Origin: Natronorubrum tibetense GA33 | GTDB lineage: Archaea; Halobacteriota; Halobacteria; Halobacteriales; Natrialbaceae | Assembly: GCF_000383975.1 (NCBI RefSeq) | Contig: NZ_KB913017.1 | Coordinates: 2,407,527 to 2,471,526 of the forward strand | Reading direction: 5' to 3' | Length of the DNA: 64,000 nt | Part shown: piece by piece, positions 1,027-48,995 of the stretch | Numbering within the stretch: the first letter of the stretch is position 1 | Layout: every line of letters starts with the position of its first letter | Program-made: the position numbers and the translations under genes | The notes under the pieces: model-generated | What the model was told of the DNA's origin: nothing | Database searches by the model: none | The model's input: the letters and a program-made list of their open reading frames with translations, nothing else

Positions 1027-1097
1027 GATATTTCCTGAAAACCCGAGATATTGTTCTGGGTGTTGATAACTATCTCTGGGTGGACTGTCAGTCGCGT

Positions 1098-2009
1098 ATG
1101 GTCGATCCGACCAACAGACGTGCGTTCCTGGGGGGTAGCGGACTGGCAATCGTCGGTCTCAGCGGCTGCCTCGGCAGGTACAGTACCGAATCGGAGACGG
1201 ATAGCTCGAACACCGAACCCGCCGACGGTGAAAATCATGATCGAACGCTCCAGTGGGGCAGACAGGGGGGCGAGCACGCGATGCAGGACTGTCCTGGGGA
1301 ACGAGGATACTGGAAGTGGGTACTCACGCCGGGTGGCCCGACCGCGATCGAAGCCGGTGCGGTGCTCACCGTCGAATTCGAGGATGGGGGCAGCGAAACG
1401 GTGGACGGATACTTCCCCGGGGGAGGGCAAGGAGCCGTTCACTTTGACGTTTTCAGGGACGATGGCGGAACCGTCGAGAGCGCGACCGTCGCGTTCAGTG
1501 GGGGTGGCAACAATGCCCTTCTGACGATCAGTGAAGGCTACTGCGTCGAAGGTCCAGAAGACCCAGAGGATCCGGAGGACCCCGAAGACCCAGAAGAACC
1601 GGAGGATCCCGAAGACCCAGAAGAACCGGAGGACCCCGAAGACCCGGAAGATCCCGAAGACCCAGAAGACCCGGAGGATCCCGAAGACCCGGAAGATCCC
1701 GAAGACCCCGAAGAACCGGAGGATCCCGAAGACCCAGAAGACCCGGGGGATCCCGAAGACCCAGAAGACCCGGAGGATCCCGAAGACCCCGAGGATCCAG
1801 AAGATCCGGAGGATCCCGAAGACCCAGAAGACCCGGGGGATCCCGAAGACCCAGAAGACCCGGAGGATCCCGAAGACCCAGAAGACCCGGAGGATCCCGA
1901 AGACCCAGAAGACCCGGAGGATCCCGAAGACCCCGAGGATCCAGAAGATCCGGACGAACCCACGAAGAAAGAACAAAAGAAGAAAGAAGCGAAGAAGAAC
2001 TCGAACTAA
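1098..2009 (+). CDS. Tat lipoprotein with long Pro-Glu-Asp repeat and basic tail
   Basis: Predicted secreted lipoprotein of 303 residues; function unknown. The N-terminus has a twin-Arg signal (NRRAFLGGSG) and a lipobox ending LSGC at about residue 23, so it is probably exported by Tat and anchored by lipid outside the membrane. Residues about 45-145 form a small glycine-rich, probably beta-rich domain with two Cys. From about residue 150 it becomes roughly 45 PED triplets with a few PEE and PGD variants, then ends in a Lys-rich tail (TKKEQKKKEAKK). The ATG at 1098 was chosen over an in-frame GTG six codons upstream because it places the Tat motif near the N-terminus and has a TATA-like sequence about 30 bp ahead. 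Confidence 0.8.
   Translation: MVDPTNRRAFLGGSGLAIVGLSGCLGRYSTESETDSSNTEPADGENHDRTLQWGRQGGEHAMQDCPGERGYWKWVLTPGGPTAIEAGAVLTVEFEDGGSETVDGYFPGGGQGAVHFDVFRDDGGTVESATVAFSGGGNNALLTISEGYCVEGPEDPEDPEDPEDPEEPEDPEDPEEPEDPEDPEDPEDPEDPEDPEDPEDPEDPEEPEDPEDPEDPGDPEDPEDPEDPEDPEDPEDPEDPEDPEDPGDPEDPEDPEDPEDPEDPEDPEDPEDPEDPEDPEDPEDPDEPTKKEQKKKEAKKNSN
1552..1959 (+). repeat. 9-bp tandem repeat array encoding PED triplets
   Basis: About 45 tandem 9-bp units of the type GAAGACCCA / GAGGATCCC inside the lipoprotein gene. Larger 27-bp blocks recur nearly exactly, which points to expansion by unequal recombination or slippage. All frames stay open through it, so it creates false open frames on both strands, including a Gly-Ser-Ser frame on the minus strand. 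Copy number is likely to vary between strains. Confidence 0.9.
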
Positions 2010-5776: not shown

Positions 5777-5821
5777 CGTTGTCGGTCGAGTATCGCAATC
5801 GGACACTGATAAGCACGATCC

Positions 5822-5827
5822 TTATAT
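5822..5827 (+). promoter_or_regulatory. TATA box of the PrsW gene
   Basis: TTATAT about 80 bp before the ATG at 5905, predicting a 5' leader of about 50 nt. It is the only strong TATA element in the divergent gap. Confidence 0.45.
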
Positions 5828-5904
5828 GGATCTTGACAGTGAATATCATACTAGGTTCCTTTCCTCGCCGAACGCTTACCGGAGCGGACGTCGTAGCGAC
5901 GGGT

Positions 5905-6912
5905 ATGGATCAGCGACGCGACCTGGTTGAACGGGCCGACGAGCAGTCGCGGGACCTCCAGGAGGTCTCGACGTGGGAACCGCGAACGGTGGTCGATCGA
6001 CTCGCGTACGTGCTCTACAACGCGGTCAACTACGGGTTACAGACGATCGTGCTCGCCGTCGCGCTGGGAATCACTCTCCTCTTGCTCGTCCAACCGGCGG
6101 TGCTCGTCCTCGAGGAGCCGTCGCTCTCGTTCTTCTTCGGGCTCTCGGTGGTTCCGGCGGCGTTGCTCGCGGGATTTATCTGGTACACGGATATCACGTC
6201 GAGCGAACCGCTGTCGCTGTTGGTGGCGACGTTCATTCTCGCCGTGCTCTTTGCGACGTTCGCGGCGGTCGTGAACTCCGCCGTGGGGCCGGTTCTGCAG
6301 GCGATTCCGGTTATCGGCACCGTCCTCTTTTTCTACCTGATCGTCGGACCCGTCGAGGAGGCGGTAAAGCTCCTCGCGGTCCGCGTCTTCGCCTACCGCA
6401 GCGACACGTTCGACGCGGTCATCGACGGCGCGGTGTACGGTGCAATCGCGGGACTCGGGTTTGCGGCGATCGAGAACGCCATTTACATCGCCAGCACGGT
6501 CGCGACGGCCGAGGTCGGGACGATCACCGCCGCGACCGGCATCGCGACCGTTCGAGCGCTCGTCGGTCCCGGTCACGTCATCTACTCCGCCATCGCGGGC
6601 TACTACCTCGGACTCGCGAAGTTCAACCCGGAACACGCCGGTCCGCTCGTCGCGAAGGGGCTCCTGATCGCCGCGTTTGTCCACGCGACGTACAACACCA
6701 CGGTCGGTATCGTTCCCGGCCTCGTCGCGGAGACCTACGCCGTTTCCTTCGAACTCGCGTTCGTCGGCTACGTCATCCTGTTCGACCTCGTCGTCGGCTA
6801 CTACCTCTACCGAAAGATCGCCCGCTACCGCCGGACCTACCGCGCTGTCAGAGATGAGACGCGTGCGTCGCCGAAGCCGGAACTGACCGAGTTCGACCCG
6901 CCACGGCGCTGA
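5905..6912 (+). CDS. PrsW-family intramembrane metalloprotease
   Basis: Polytopic membrane protein of 335 residues, related to PrsW, the site-1 protease that cuts anti-sigma factors in Bacillus. About eight hydrophobic segments are visible. Family motifs are present: 'PVEEAVKLLAV' (the EExxK motif, near residues 150-160), 'GFAAIENAIY' (second motif with Glu), and the histidines of 'GPGHVIYSAIAGYY' and 'FVHATYN', likely metal ligands. Archaea lack sigma factors of that type, so the substrate here is unknown; cleavage of a membrane-tethered regulator is a possibility. An upstream in-frame start would add a hydrophobic stretch spanning the promoter and was rejected. Confidence 0.85.
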   Translation: MDQRRDLVERADEQSRDLQEVSTWEPRTVVDRLAYVLYNAVNYGLQTIVLAVALGITLLLLVQPAVLVLEEPSLSFFFGLSVVPAALLAGFIWYTDITSSEPLSLLVATFILAVLFATFAAVVNSAVGPVLQAIPVIGTVLFFYLIVGPVEEAVKLLAVRVFAYRSDTFDAVIDGAVYGAIAGLGFAAIENAIYIASTVATAEVGTITAATGIATVRALVGPGHVIYSAIAGYYLGLAKFNPEHAGPLVAKGLLIAAFVHATYNTTVGIVPGLVAETYAVSFELAFVGYVILFDLVVGYYLYRKIARYRRTYRAVRDETRASPKPELTEFDPPRR

Positions 6913-7003: not shown

Positions 7004-9259
7004 ATGAGCGCGACCTTTACAGACGACGACCTCGAGAAGTCCGTCGAGAACGCCAACGGCGAGGTGATCGGGACCGTGAGGAAGATCGAAGCGGATACCG
7101 CCCGCGTCGAACCCCGTTCCGGTCTCGTCGACTCGATCAGAGCCGCACTCACCTGGAGCGAGAGCCACGAGGAGACTCTCGAGGTCCACGAGGAGTCGGT
7201 CGACGAAATCTCGAGCGAGGCGATCCGACTCGAGTCGGAATCGGTGGCGGACCTCGAGGACGAGTCGACCGAAATCGACAGCGAAACGGGCCAGTCCGAA
7301 ACGCCGGATCCGGTTGGCGAACAGGACACGGCTTCCGAGCGGGATCCGTCTGAGAAACTCGACGATCCGTCGACCCACGACGCGGCCGAACGATCCGCGG
7401 AACCCGACCGGACGGTTTCGGTCGAAGAGATGGATCAGCCTCCCCTCGACGAAGAGGCGACAGCCGAGATGCCGGACGATCTCGAGGAAACGGAGACGCT
7501 CGACGGGTCGAATCCGGACGATCCGACTGACGAGTTCAAGGAGCCGGATGAGATTCCGACGAGCGGAATGACGGGCGAGGACGGCAGCGACGATACGAGC
7601 GACGCGGTCGATGATTCGGATGGATGGAACGACACGGAATCGTCGGCCGAAGCGGACGACTGGAGCACCACTGGGCCGGCGACCGGGTCGGCCGAACCGA
7701 ACGAACAGTCTTCGCCGGACGCGATGAGCGACACTCGACCCGTCGAATCGCCCGGCGAGATGGACCGCGCTAGCGTTCAGGACGAACCGGCGGGCGAAAC
7801 CCCGGAACCGATCGACGAGGAGGAGTTGCTCGACGATATGGCATCGAGTGAGGGTTCGAACGATGACACCACCGACGCCACCGACGGCGCCGACAGCGTC
7901 GATGGCGGCCCGAGCACGGAACGGGCCGCGGATTTCGAGAGCGTCGGCGACGTGGACGCTGACGACACGAATGCCGACGGTCCGATCGAGACCGCAGAGA
8001 CCGAATCCGAAACGCCAGGGACTGATTCGACTGACGAGACGGATTCGACTGACGAGTCCGATCTAGCTGACGAACTGGACACTGGCACCGATCTCGAGTC
8101 GGTCGCCGACGAGTCCGACGGGCTGGACGACGGCGAGGTTGACGGTCCGGCGGAAACGGACGACGTGGCCGACGAGATGGATCCGGGCATCGATCTGGCG
8201 GCAGCCGCAGAGCTGGACGATACCGACGACCTTGAGCCCACTGACGGAGAGGGCGAGACCGACGAGATGAGTCTGGTCGACGAACTCGACACCGGCACCG
8301 ACCTCGAATCGGCAGCGGAGTCGAACTCCGGTGGAGCGAGTCCGGAGACTGAATCGAGTGCCAACGGTCGGCCGGAGACGGCACTCGATCCCGACGTCGG
8401 CGACCACGCGTCGAGCGAGGCGGACCCGCGACCGGAAACCGAACTCGAGCCGGCGGAATCGGCTGCGAGCGACGAGTCGGTAGAACCCGCTGTCGGCGAG
8501 ACGGCAACGATCGAGGAAAGCGAGGAGACGGCCAGCGACATCGTCCCGGGAGTCGACATCGAATCGGCCGTGGAATCGGACGACCAGCGGGCAGCCGAGA
8601 TCGATCCAGACGCGCTCGCCGGCCGAGGCGCCGGCGACGAATCGGCAGCCGACGATGTCACTCCACAGCGAGTCTCCGACGACGAGGTCGACTCGGATAC
8701 GGCCTCGGATCGGGCCGCACGAGCGCGAGTGGACGACGACGGAACGGCTACAGCGACAGACGCAGAGAGCCGCGATCTGGATCGGTCCCGGTCGAGTACG
8801 CCACTCGCGGCCACCCTCGCCGCACAGCGGGCAGCGATGACGAGCGGACAGGAACTGGTCGAGCAAAGCCTCACCGTCCAGCAGCGAGCCGCTCGAGCCG
8901 CAGTTGCGACGCCGCTGCTCGCCCAGCGACAGGGAGTCGAGAACGCCAAGTCAGCTACGCAGCAGTACTTCGACGCCGTTACCGCGCTGACGGGCACCGG
9001 GAGCAGTGACTCCCACGAGCAGCAGTCGCTGAGCGAGGCGATCGACGAACTCGAGGCGGCTCACAGGGGGCTCCCCGACGAGGACCTCTCCCGACAACTC
9101 GCGGACCACCTCGAGGAGCTTCGCTCGCTCCAAGAGCAGTTCGGCGACGACGTCGAACGCGAAAGCGAACGGGTTGTGGACCTGCTCGAGCGCCAGGCCG
9201 ACCTGCTCGAGGCCTGCAGGGACTCGATCGAGGCCGACAGCGGGGAGACGGATCGATAG
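7004..9259 (+). CDS. Large acidic protein: PRC-barrel-like N-domain, disordered middle, coiled-coil end
   Basis: A 751-residue protein in three parts. Residues 1-70 (MSATFTDDDLEKSVENANGE...) resemble a PRC-barrel-like domain and match the 79-residue protein at 48756. Residues about 75-590 are an extremely acidic, Ser/Thr/Glu/Asp-rich region, surely disordered, with four copies of a short motif of the form DE(L/M)DxGxDLxxxA. The last 150 residues are helical (AQRAAMTSGQELVEQS, ENAKSATQQYFDAV, heptads up to LERQADLLEACRDS), reminiscent of phasin-like or coiled-coil surface-binding helices. Function unknown; a scaffold is the best guess. The ATG at 7004 matches the start of the short paralogue. 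Confidence 0.8.
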   Translation: MSATFTDDDLEKSVENANGEVIGTVRKIEADTARVEPRSGLVDSIRAALTWSESHEETLEVHEESVDEISSEAIRLESESVADLEDESTEIDSETGQSETPDPVGEQDTASERDPSEKLDDPSTHDAAERSAEPDRTVSVEEMDQPPLDEEATAEMPDDLEETETLDGSNPDDPTDEFKEPDEIPTSGMTGEDGSDDTSDAVDDSDGWNDTESSAEADDWSTTGPATGSAEPNEQSSPDAMSDTRPVESPGEMDRASVQDEPAGETPEPIDEEELLDDMASSEGSNDDTTDATDGADSVDGGPSTERAADFESVGDVDADDTNADGPIETAETESETPGTDSTDETDSTDESDLADELDTGTDLESVADESDGLDDGEVDGPAETDDVADEMDPGIDLAAAAELDDTDDLEPTDGEGETDEMSLVDELDTGTDLESAAESNSGGASPETESSANGRPETALDPDVGDHASSEADPRPETELEPAESAASDESVEPAVGETATIEESEETASDIVPGVDIESAVESDDQRAAEIDPDALAGRGAGDESAADDVTPQRVSDDEVDSDTASDRAARARVDDDGTATATDAESRDLDRSRSSTPLAATLAAQRAAMTSGQELVEQSLTVQQRAARAAVATPLLAQRQGVENAKSATQQYFDAVTALTGTGSSDSHEQQSLSEAIDELEAAHRGLPDEDLSRQLADHLEELRSLQEQFGDDVERESERVVDLLERQADLLEACRDSIEADSGETDR

Positions 9260-48755: not shown

Positions 48756-48995
48756 ATGACAGCGACACTGTCCGACGACGAGGTCGGCAAGACGGTGATC
48801 GACGCGGAAGGGAAAGAGCTCGGAATCGTTGCGCAGGTCGACGGTGGCCGCGCGGCCGTCGATCCGAACCCCTCCGTCGCGGAGCACGTGCTCGCGAAGG
48901 TCGGCGTCGAGGGGGAAGACGAGGAGGACTACGTCGTCACGGAAGATATGCTCGAGACCGTCGGCGAGGATATCGTGCTGCGCGGCGAACTCTGA
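48756..48995 (+). CDS. Small PRC-barrel-like protein, 79 aa
   Basis: Stand-alone PRC-barrel-like domain: MTATLSDDEVGKTVIDAEGKELGIVAQVDGG... PRC-barrel domains bind partners such as photosystem or RNA-processing proteins. Its first 45 residues match the N-terminus of the large acidic protein at 7004 (MSATFTDDDLEKSV... VIGTVRKIEADTARVEP), so the two belong to one family. The TATA-like 'gttatcc' about 28 bp upstream supports a leaderless start at 48756. Function unknown. Confidence 0.75.
   Translation: MTATLSDDEVGKTVIDAEGKELGIVAQVDGGRAAVDPNPSVAEHVLAKVGVEGEDEEDYVVTEDMLETVGEDIVLRGEL

Follow-up and report, generated by a model that had tools for sequence, protein, structure and literature searches.

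A gene in the 64,000-nucleotide stretch of Natronorubrum tibetense GA33 DNA analysed here (the window) encodes a long acidic protein in which a small folded head and a helical tail are joined by a disordered chain. What does such a protein hold, and at which site in the cell? The first-pass annotation proposed a scaffold and named granules or membranes as the structures that it might bind.

Gene and protein architecture

The gene and its main parts are as follows.

7004..9259, + strand: gene for the 751-residue protein with PRC head, acidic middle and phasin tail (open frame; orthologue starts agree)
7004..7234, + strand: head, residues 1-77, predicted PRC-barrel fold (AlphaFold2; best Foldseek and VIA-align matches)
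7241..8794, + strand: acidic disordered middle, residues 80-597 (178 of 518 residues Asp or Glu)
8795..8992, + strand: putative phasin core in the tail, residues 598-663, with the first helix (PhaP homology by HMM and hhalign)
9020..9253, + strand: last two tail helices, residues 673-750 (AlphaFold2 model; helix 692-750 amphipathic)

The frame runs from an ATG at 7004 to the stop at 9259, and orthologues align from the same residue; the one in Natronorubrum texcoconense shares 72% identity with the 751-residue protein. With a pI of 4.05 and 230 Asp or Glu among its 751 residues, the product is indeed the acidic protein that had been described at 7004-9259. AlphaFold2, run on the whole protein with 14 sequences, gave a mean pLDDT of 50 and a pTM of 0.25. 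The model contains an ordered head (1-77), a middle (80-597) that lies nearly entirely below a pLDDT of 50, and tail helices at 600-663, 673-688 and 692-750, bearing out the disordered middle and helical tail of the earlier description. Searches of the whole protein against Pfam and NCBIfam returned no phasin model among the matches up to E 1, and no match to it was found in the plasmid collection. Weak helical matches of the whole protein or tail in Pfam and NCBIfam (PilJ, Spectrin, F0F1 subunit b and others) fell below the cut-off and were taken as chance.

The gene neighbours encode a PrsW-family protease and riboflavin synthase, and PrsW adjoins the gene in 9 of 11 loci. The gene is accessory: it is absent from six of ten congeners, all ten of which have phaC, and in each of the six a small membrane protein directly follows PrsW. 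Genus-wide, the PrsW-family protease gene (window 5779-6912, + strand) stands beside the genes for the small membrane protein and riboflavin synthase, a neighbourhood that is kept with or without the phasin gene in between.

The head is predicted to be a PRC barrel

The AlphaFold2 model of the head, computed from 36 heads, reached a pLDDT of 75 and a pTM of 0.58, with residues 41-60 weakly predicted. The best Foldseek rows for this model were reaction-centre H subunits, Archaeoglobus PRC1/PRC2, CdpB1/CdpB2, MTH1859 and RimM; no row reached an E below 0.001. The best rows of VIA-align were RimM (Z 8.2), 8onw (Z 7.7), MTH1859 (Z 7.4) and the reaction-centre H subunit (Z 7.0), and 8qzo aligned with Z 6.6; values under 8 may reflect a common arrangement, and the listed rows nonetheless agree on one fold. 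On the predicted model, the head thus has a PRC-barrel fold, in agreement with the PRC-barrel-like head originally suspected. On the sequence level the support is weak: with a limit of E 0.5, Pfam PF05239 matched 21 of the 36 heads (3.8e-4 for the best) and left the query head unmatched, and PDB sequences searched with a head profile gave no match up to E 1.

A second head-domain protein is encoded in the window.

48756..48995, + strand: 79-residue head-only remote paralogue

An HMM built from long orthologues only recovered this protein among 344 window ORFs at E 3.2e-12, with the best reversed decoy at E 1. Its link to the 751-residue protein, proposed earlier, therefore stands as far as a head in common is concerned; it is nevertheless a remote paralogue (19 of 74 residues identical to the head, the genes about 39 kb apart) and one of several head proteins. 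Other head paralogues in N. tibetense GA33 are closer than the 79-residue protein, which missed E 0.01 there. We regard it as a possible partner of the 751-residue protein. In the same genome, two head-domain genes lie in tandem at L010:3870-6467 (- strand); the true start of the second frame (632 residues) is probably further downstream.

N. tibetense GA33 also encodes two proteins with a Pfam PRC domain, which we take to be a possible CdpB pair. The long-orthologue head HMM did not recognise them (E 1.5 or worse); with a broader head HMM and a small search set, one of the pair reached E 0.0056. The head is thus at most a distant cousin of these proteins. The head family also has matches in genomes that lack phaC, for example G013, G015, G019 and G034.

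The resemblance of the head model to Archaeoglobus PRC1/PRC2 and CdpB structures (8onw, 8qzo) raises the alternative of a scaffold for cell division or the envelope. In this reading the PRC head would join a CdpB-like assembly, the tail would only oligomerise and its PhaP likeness would be irrelevant to PHA. PMC12186497 describes CdpB1/CdpB2 as PRC proteins that stabilise the divisome, and the frequent adjacency of PrsW would suit such a role. Against this stand the HMM results for the two Pfam-PRC proteins and the persistence of the PrsW neighbourhood in genomes without the gene; we consider this alternative improbable.

The tail core is related to PhaP

In Haloferax mediterranei the pha genes form a phaJ-phaR-phaP-phaE-phaC cluster, and PhaP is the phasin. 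N. tibetense GA33 has a corresponding cluster (locus L063) with a MaoC-type PhaJ, PhaR (AbrB domain), PhaP, PhaE and PhaC, where PhaC was named by a match over the curated cut-off, PhaE by a weak TIGR01834 match and PhaP by position. This cluster is distant from our gene (3.18 Mb and 2.4 Mb on the same contig, phaC being about 0.77 Mb away), which speaks against the gene being phaP itself and not against a phasin domain.

Profile comparison indicates homology between haloarchaeal PhaP and approximately the first 70 residues of the tail. A tail HMM made from the first 80 columns of 14 tails was searched against 4,791 ORFs, the training proteins among them. It matched the PhaP of all seven distinct pha clusters (E 5.8e-11 to 4e-5) and three PhaP-like helix-hairpin-helix proteins (E 9.6e-21 to 2.3e-11), as well as PhaP-like genes adjacent to head-only ones and other relatives; the 4,791 reversed ORFs gave no match up to E 10. 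In a small set, H. larsenii PhaP scored E 7.6e-10, the next ORF outside the PhaP group only E 0.2. The hhalign probability for the tail was 91% with PhaP and 99.6% with the PhaP-like proteins. PhaE was rejected as a tail relative (hhalign control, 0.5%). A direct phmmer comparison of the tail alone with the PhaP of N. tibetense GA33 gave 15.9 bits. The tail alone, too, found no phasin model up to E 1 in Pfam or NCBIfam, and the organism's own PhaP is likewise unmatched in NCBIfam.

The first tail helix, which is the part in common with PhaP, is not clearly amphipathic (hydrophobic moment 0.20, shuffle mean 0.16, equalled or exceeded in 71 of 500 shuffles), whereas helix 692-750 is (0.48, shuffle mean 0.21, 0 of 500).

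PhaC, the PhaP-like proteins L009, L053 and L054 and four distinct long orthologues all terminate in a helix-hairpin-helix domain. When the L009 domain was searched in N. tibetense GA33, the best matches were one other gene, PhaC and a second PhaP-like protein, with four genes weaker. The resulting link among PhaC, the PhaP-like proteins and the long orthologues is suggestive only. PhaP-like genes are also present without an annotated pha gene nearby, in a gene table that is incomplete. The organism's own PhaC (L063:7158-8756, - strand) has a C-terminal extension that ends in a helix-hairpin-helix-like segment.

A short motif is conserved in the disordered middle

The middle contains four copies of a short motif, positioned as had been reported (about 8066-8575) and defined here by pattern and conservation.

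8066..8110, + strand: motif copy 1, ADELDTGTDLESVAD, residues 355-369
8168..8212, + strand: motif copy 2, ADEMDPGIDLAAAAE, residues 389-403
8276..8320, + strand: motif copy 3, VDELDTGTDLESAAE, residues 425-439
8531..8575, + strand: motif copy 4, ASDIVPGVDIESAVE, residues 510-524

In 500 shuffles of the query middle, the motif occurred 0.02 times on average and at most once. Across 17 distinct long proteins (the query and 16 relatives) we counted 51 copies versus 0.23 expected from shuffled middles; all 17 carry at least one copy and 14 carry three or more. The pattern was fitted by eye after the copies had been seen, which makes the shuffle figure partly circular, and conservation was therefore compared as a better test. 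Over 10 orthologues, with gaps counted as mismatches, the four 15-residue motif windows have a mean identity to the query of 54%, twice that of four windows drawn at random from the middle (26%, SD 6%; 0 of 2000 draws reach 54%). In copy 2, G395 and D397 are invariant across the 11-sequence alignment. The motifs are thus conserved while the linkers vary, a point that the first-pass annotation had proposed to check, and its own potential objection, motifs lost in orthologues, does not apply.

Little of the middle reaches a pLDDT of 50; the stretches that do include 353-359, 400-402 and 423-429, which lie at or beside copies 1-3. A profile of 15 motif peptides, three of them from the query, retrieved the four copies from the whole genome at E 6.7e-10 to 0.0011; among the 150 of 178 candidates that were scored, the only others, at E 0.46 and 0.85, were taken as chance. 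The copies match one another at 26-35 of 45 bases and align across orthologues, which disfavours a recent tandem duplication. Three other patterns recur in the long proteins: an RPETxL-like one (15 copies versus 0.04 expected, 9 of 17 proteins), an IDPDAL-like one (11 versus 0.21, 11 of 17) and an AER-type one (18 versus 4.9, 12 of 17).

Could the repeats and the PhaP likeness both be by-products of an acidic, alanine- and glutamine-rich halophile composition? Helical low-complexity sequences do yield weak spurious matches, as with PilJ and Spectrin above. Such an origin is hardly credible, given that shuffled middles contain almost no motif, that reversed ORFs give no tail match and that PhaE, another helical acidic PHA protein, fails to align with the tail.

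The tail profile follows PHA synthase

Among the first 37 family genomes, all 12 with the long or short protein have phaC, but with a base rate of 32 of 37 this association is weak, and we therefore widened the sample to 125 family genomes. The tail profile (E up to 1e-4) was present in 84 of these and phaC in 105 (103 over the cut-off). All 84 fall among the 105 phaC genomes and none among the 20 without phaC, where relatedness is uncorrected and, for part of the 20, absence was obtained by subtraction. The corresponding Fisher p of 4e-12 ignores kinship and overstates the association, since PhaP itself accounts for many of the tail matches and the 20 negatives belong to just five genera. Tail matches in frames of at least 560 residues came from 35 genomes, all 35 with phaC by hand count among the matches listed; heads were checked in some of these 35.

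Within genera, an extra phasin-domain match besides PhaP occurs in 4 of 4 carriers versus 0 of 6 non-carriers in the query genus (p 0.005), and in 9 of 9 carriers versus 7 of 20 non-carriers in genus g8 (p 0.001); these are hand counts among the matches listed, and the single match of six g8 non-carriers, whose place was not shown, was counted as PhaP. That the tail profile tracks phaC further argues against the cell-division or envelope scaffold considered above. In genome G103, contig C2:737147-738164, the phaC match is broken into two parts that fall below the cut-off, and an in-frame stop is present; this genome gave no tail-profile match (by subtraction).

Head and phasin domains occur fused and as neighbours

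Head and tail share one frame in 25 rows, which reduce to 18 distinct proteins once genomes present twice are removed. A head without a fused tail was found in 36 rows, 10 of which have a phasin-domain gene within 3 kb. In eight distinct loci, head-only and phasin-domain genes lie tail-to-tail, 53-220 bp apart. These are L011 of N. tibetense GA33 and loci of seven Natrinema species, mutually close relatives; L087, perhaps a broken fused gene, is outside the eight. Adjacent in some genomes and fused in others, the head and the phasin domain are suggested to act jointly. At L011:1920-4181, a 298-residue head paralogue continues into GDDDDGLTDDDD-type repeats and has the phasin-domain gene tail-to-tail; this locus also adjoins an enoyl-CoA hydratase-family gene.

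The Salinadaptatus version is only 187 residues long and consists of the head and part of the tail, with no middle. Such a form, the accessory nature of the gene and the strong acidity of the middle would all fit an extra phasin whose middle is just a charged brush, maintaining granules in a soluble, separated state at high salt, and whose head and motifs have no specific partner. This reading is harder to reconcile with motif windows whose conservation greatly exceeds that of the remaining middle, with motif copies in 17 of 17 long proteins, and with the retention of the head in all fused proteins found (in a search partly selected for the head). We judge it unlikely.

A putative multidomain phasin

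With moderate confidence, we propose that the 751-residue protein is a granule-bound multidomain phasin in which an acidic, motif-bearing tether carries the PRC head. Binding to granules, docking through the motifs, the partners and the cellular role are what we infer here. A PhaP-related tail combined with a folded barrel head suggests that the protein probably sits on granules and connects them to something else. The C-terminal phasin domain would most likely place it on the PHA granule surface, contacting either the polymer itself or the PhaP/PhaE/PhaC coat. The acidic disordered middle, 518 residues long, would act as a tether that keeps the N-terminal PRC barrel off the granule, and its conserved short motifs may serve as docking sites. 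The partner of the barrel could be a second copy of itself, a different PRC-head protein or some other scaffold. As a net effect, granules would be cross-linked, spaced or positioned. The scaffold idea of the first-pass annotation thus survives in outline; of its granules or membranes, the homology of the tail to PhaP points to PHA granules as the likely site.

Several findings count against this reading: the gene is far from the pha cluster, the first tail helix is not clearly amphipathic, six phaC-bearing congeners lack the gene and no named phasin family is matched. The same holds for the large share of PhaP itself in the phaC association, for PhaP-like genes away from annotated pha genes and for head-family matches in phaC-less genomes.

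A more specific and distinctly speculative version, which we think unlikely as it stands, is an archaeal granule-positioning system. Here the phasin would use its acidic, motif-bearing linker to tether PHA granules to a PRC-barrel assembly, either its own head paralogues or the PRC proteins of the divisome, so that granules are spaced and shared at division. If true, this would be an archaeal counterpart, made from other parts, of the bacterial PhaF/PhaM nucleoid tethers.

Comparison with known systems

Haloarchaeal PhaP of the Haloferax mediterranei type is homologous to the tail core over about 70 residues by our profiles. However, PhaP has about 160 residues in N. tibetense GA33, is encoded in the pha cluster and has neither PRC head nor acidic middle. 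The closest tail relatives outside the family, the PhaP-like helix-hairpin-helix proteins L009, L053 and L054, have the same ending domain as the four long orthologues and likewise lack the PRC head and the acidic middle.

No mechanism for spacing or dividing PHA granules is known to us from archaea. With its PRC barrel and conserved putative docking motifs, the multidomain phasin proposed here would be a concrete candidate for such a function, and since one genus holds species with and without the gene, the question can be tested. Our searches of the open-licence PMC literature brought up no phasin domain linked to a PRC barrel by a disordered chain with motifs, and the accessible parts of PMC6631277 and PMC13038957 contain nothing on the domain.

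In bacteria, PhaF of Pseudomonas and PhaM of Ralstonia are phasins that attach granules to the nucleoid, according to PMC5658603. By analogy, and in proposed layout only, our protein would resemble them in having a granule-binding part and a second part that holds another structure. Whereas PhaF and PhaM are described there as binding DNA, a PRC barrel on an acidic chain is an unlikely DNA binder. PRC-barrel proteins help to organise the haloarchaeal divisome, as PMC12186497 reports. CdpB1 and CdpB2 of archaeal cell division have the PRC-barrel fold (8onw, 8qzo) that is predicted for our head, but the head HMMs did not clearly recognise their possible counterparts in N. tibetense GA33 as close sequence relatives, and no phasin tail has been described for them.

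The PhaP-like helix-hairpin-helix proteins and the PRC-head proteins, both uncharacterised as groups, are candidate members of the granule coat. Elsewhere in the window, a gene at 1080-2009 (+ strand) encodes a 309-residue protein with a very long PED/PEDPED repeat, the start of which, judged by eye, we take to be twin-arginine/lipobox-like.
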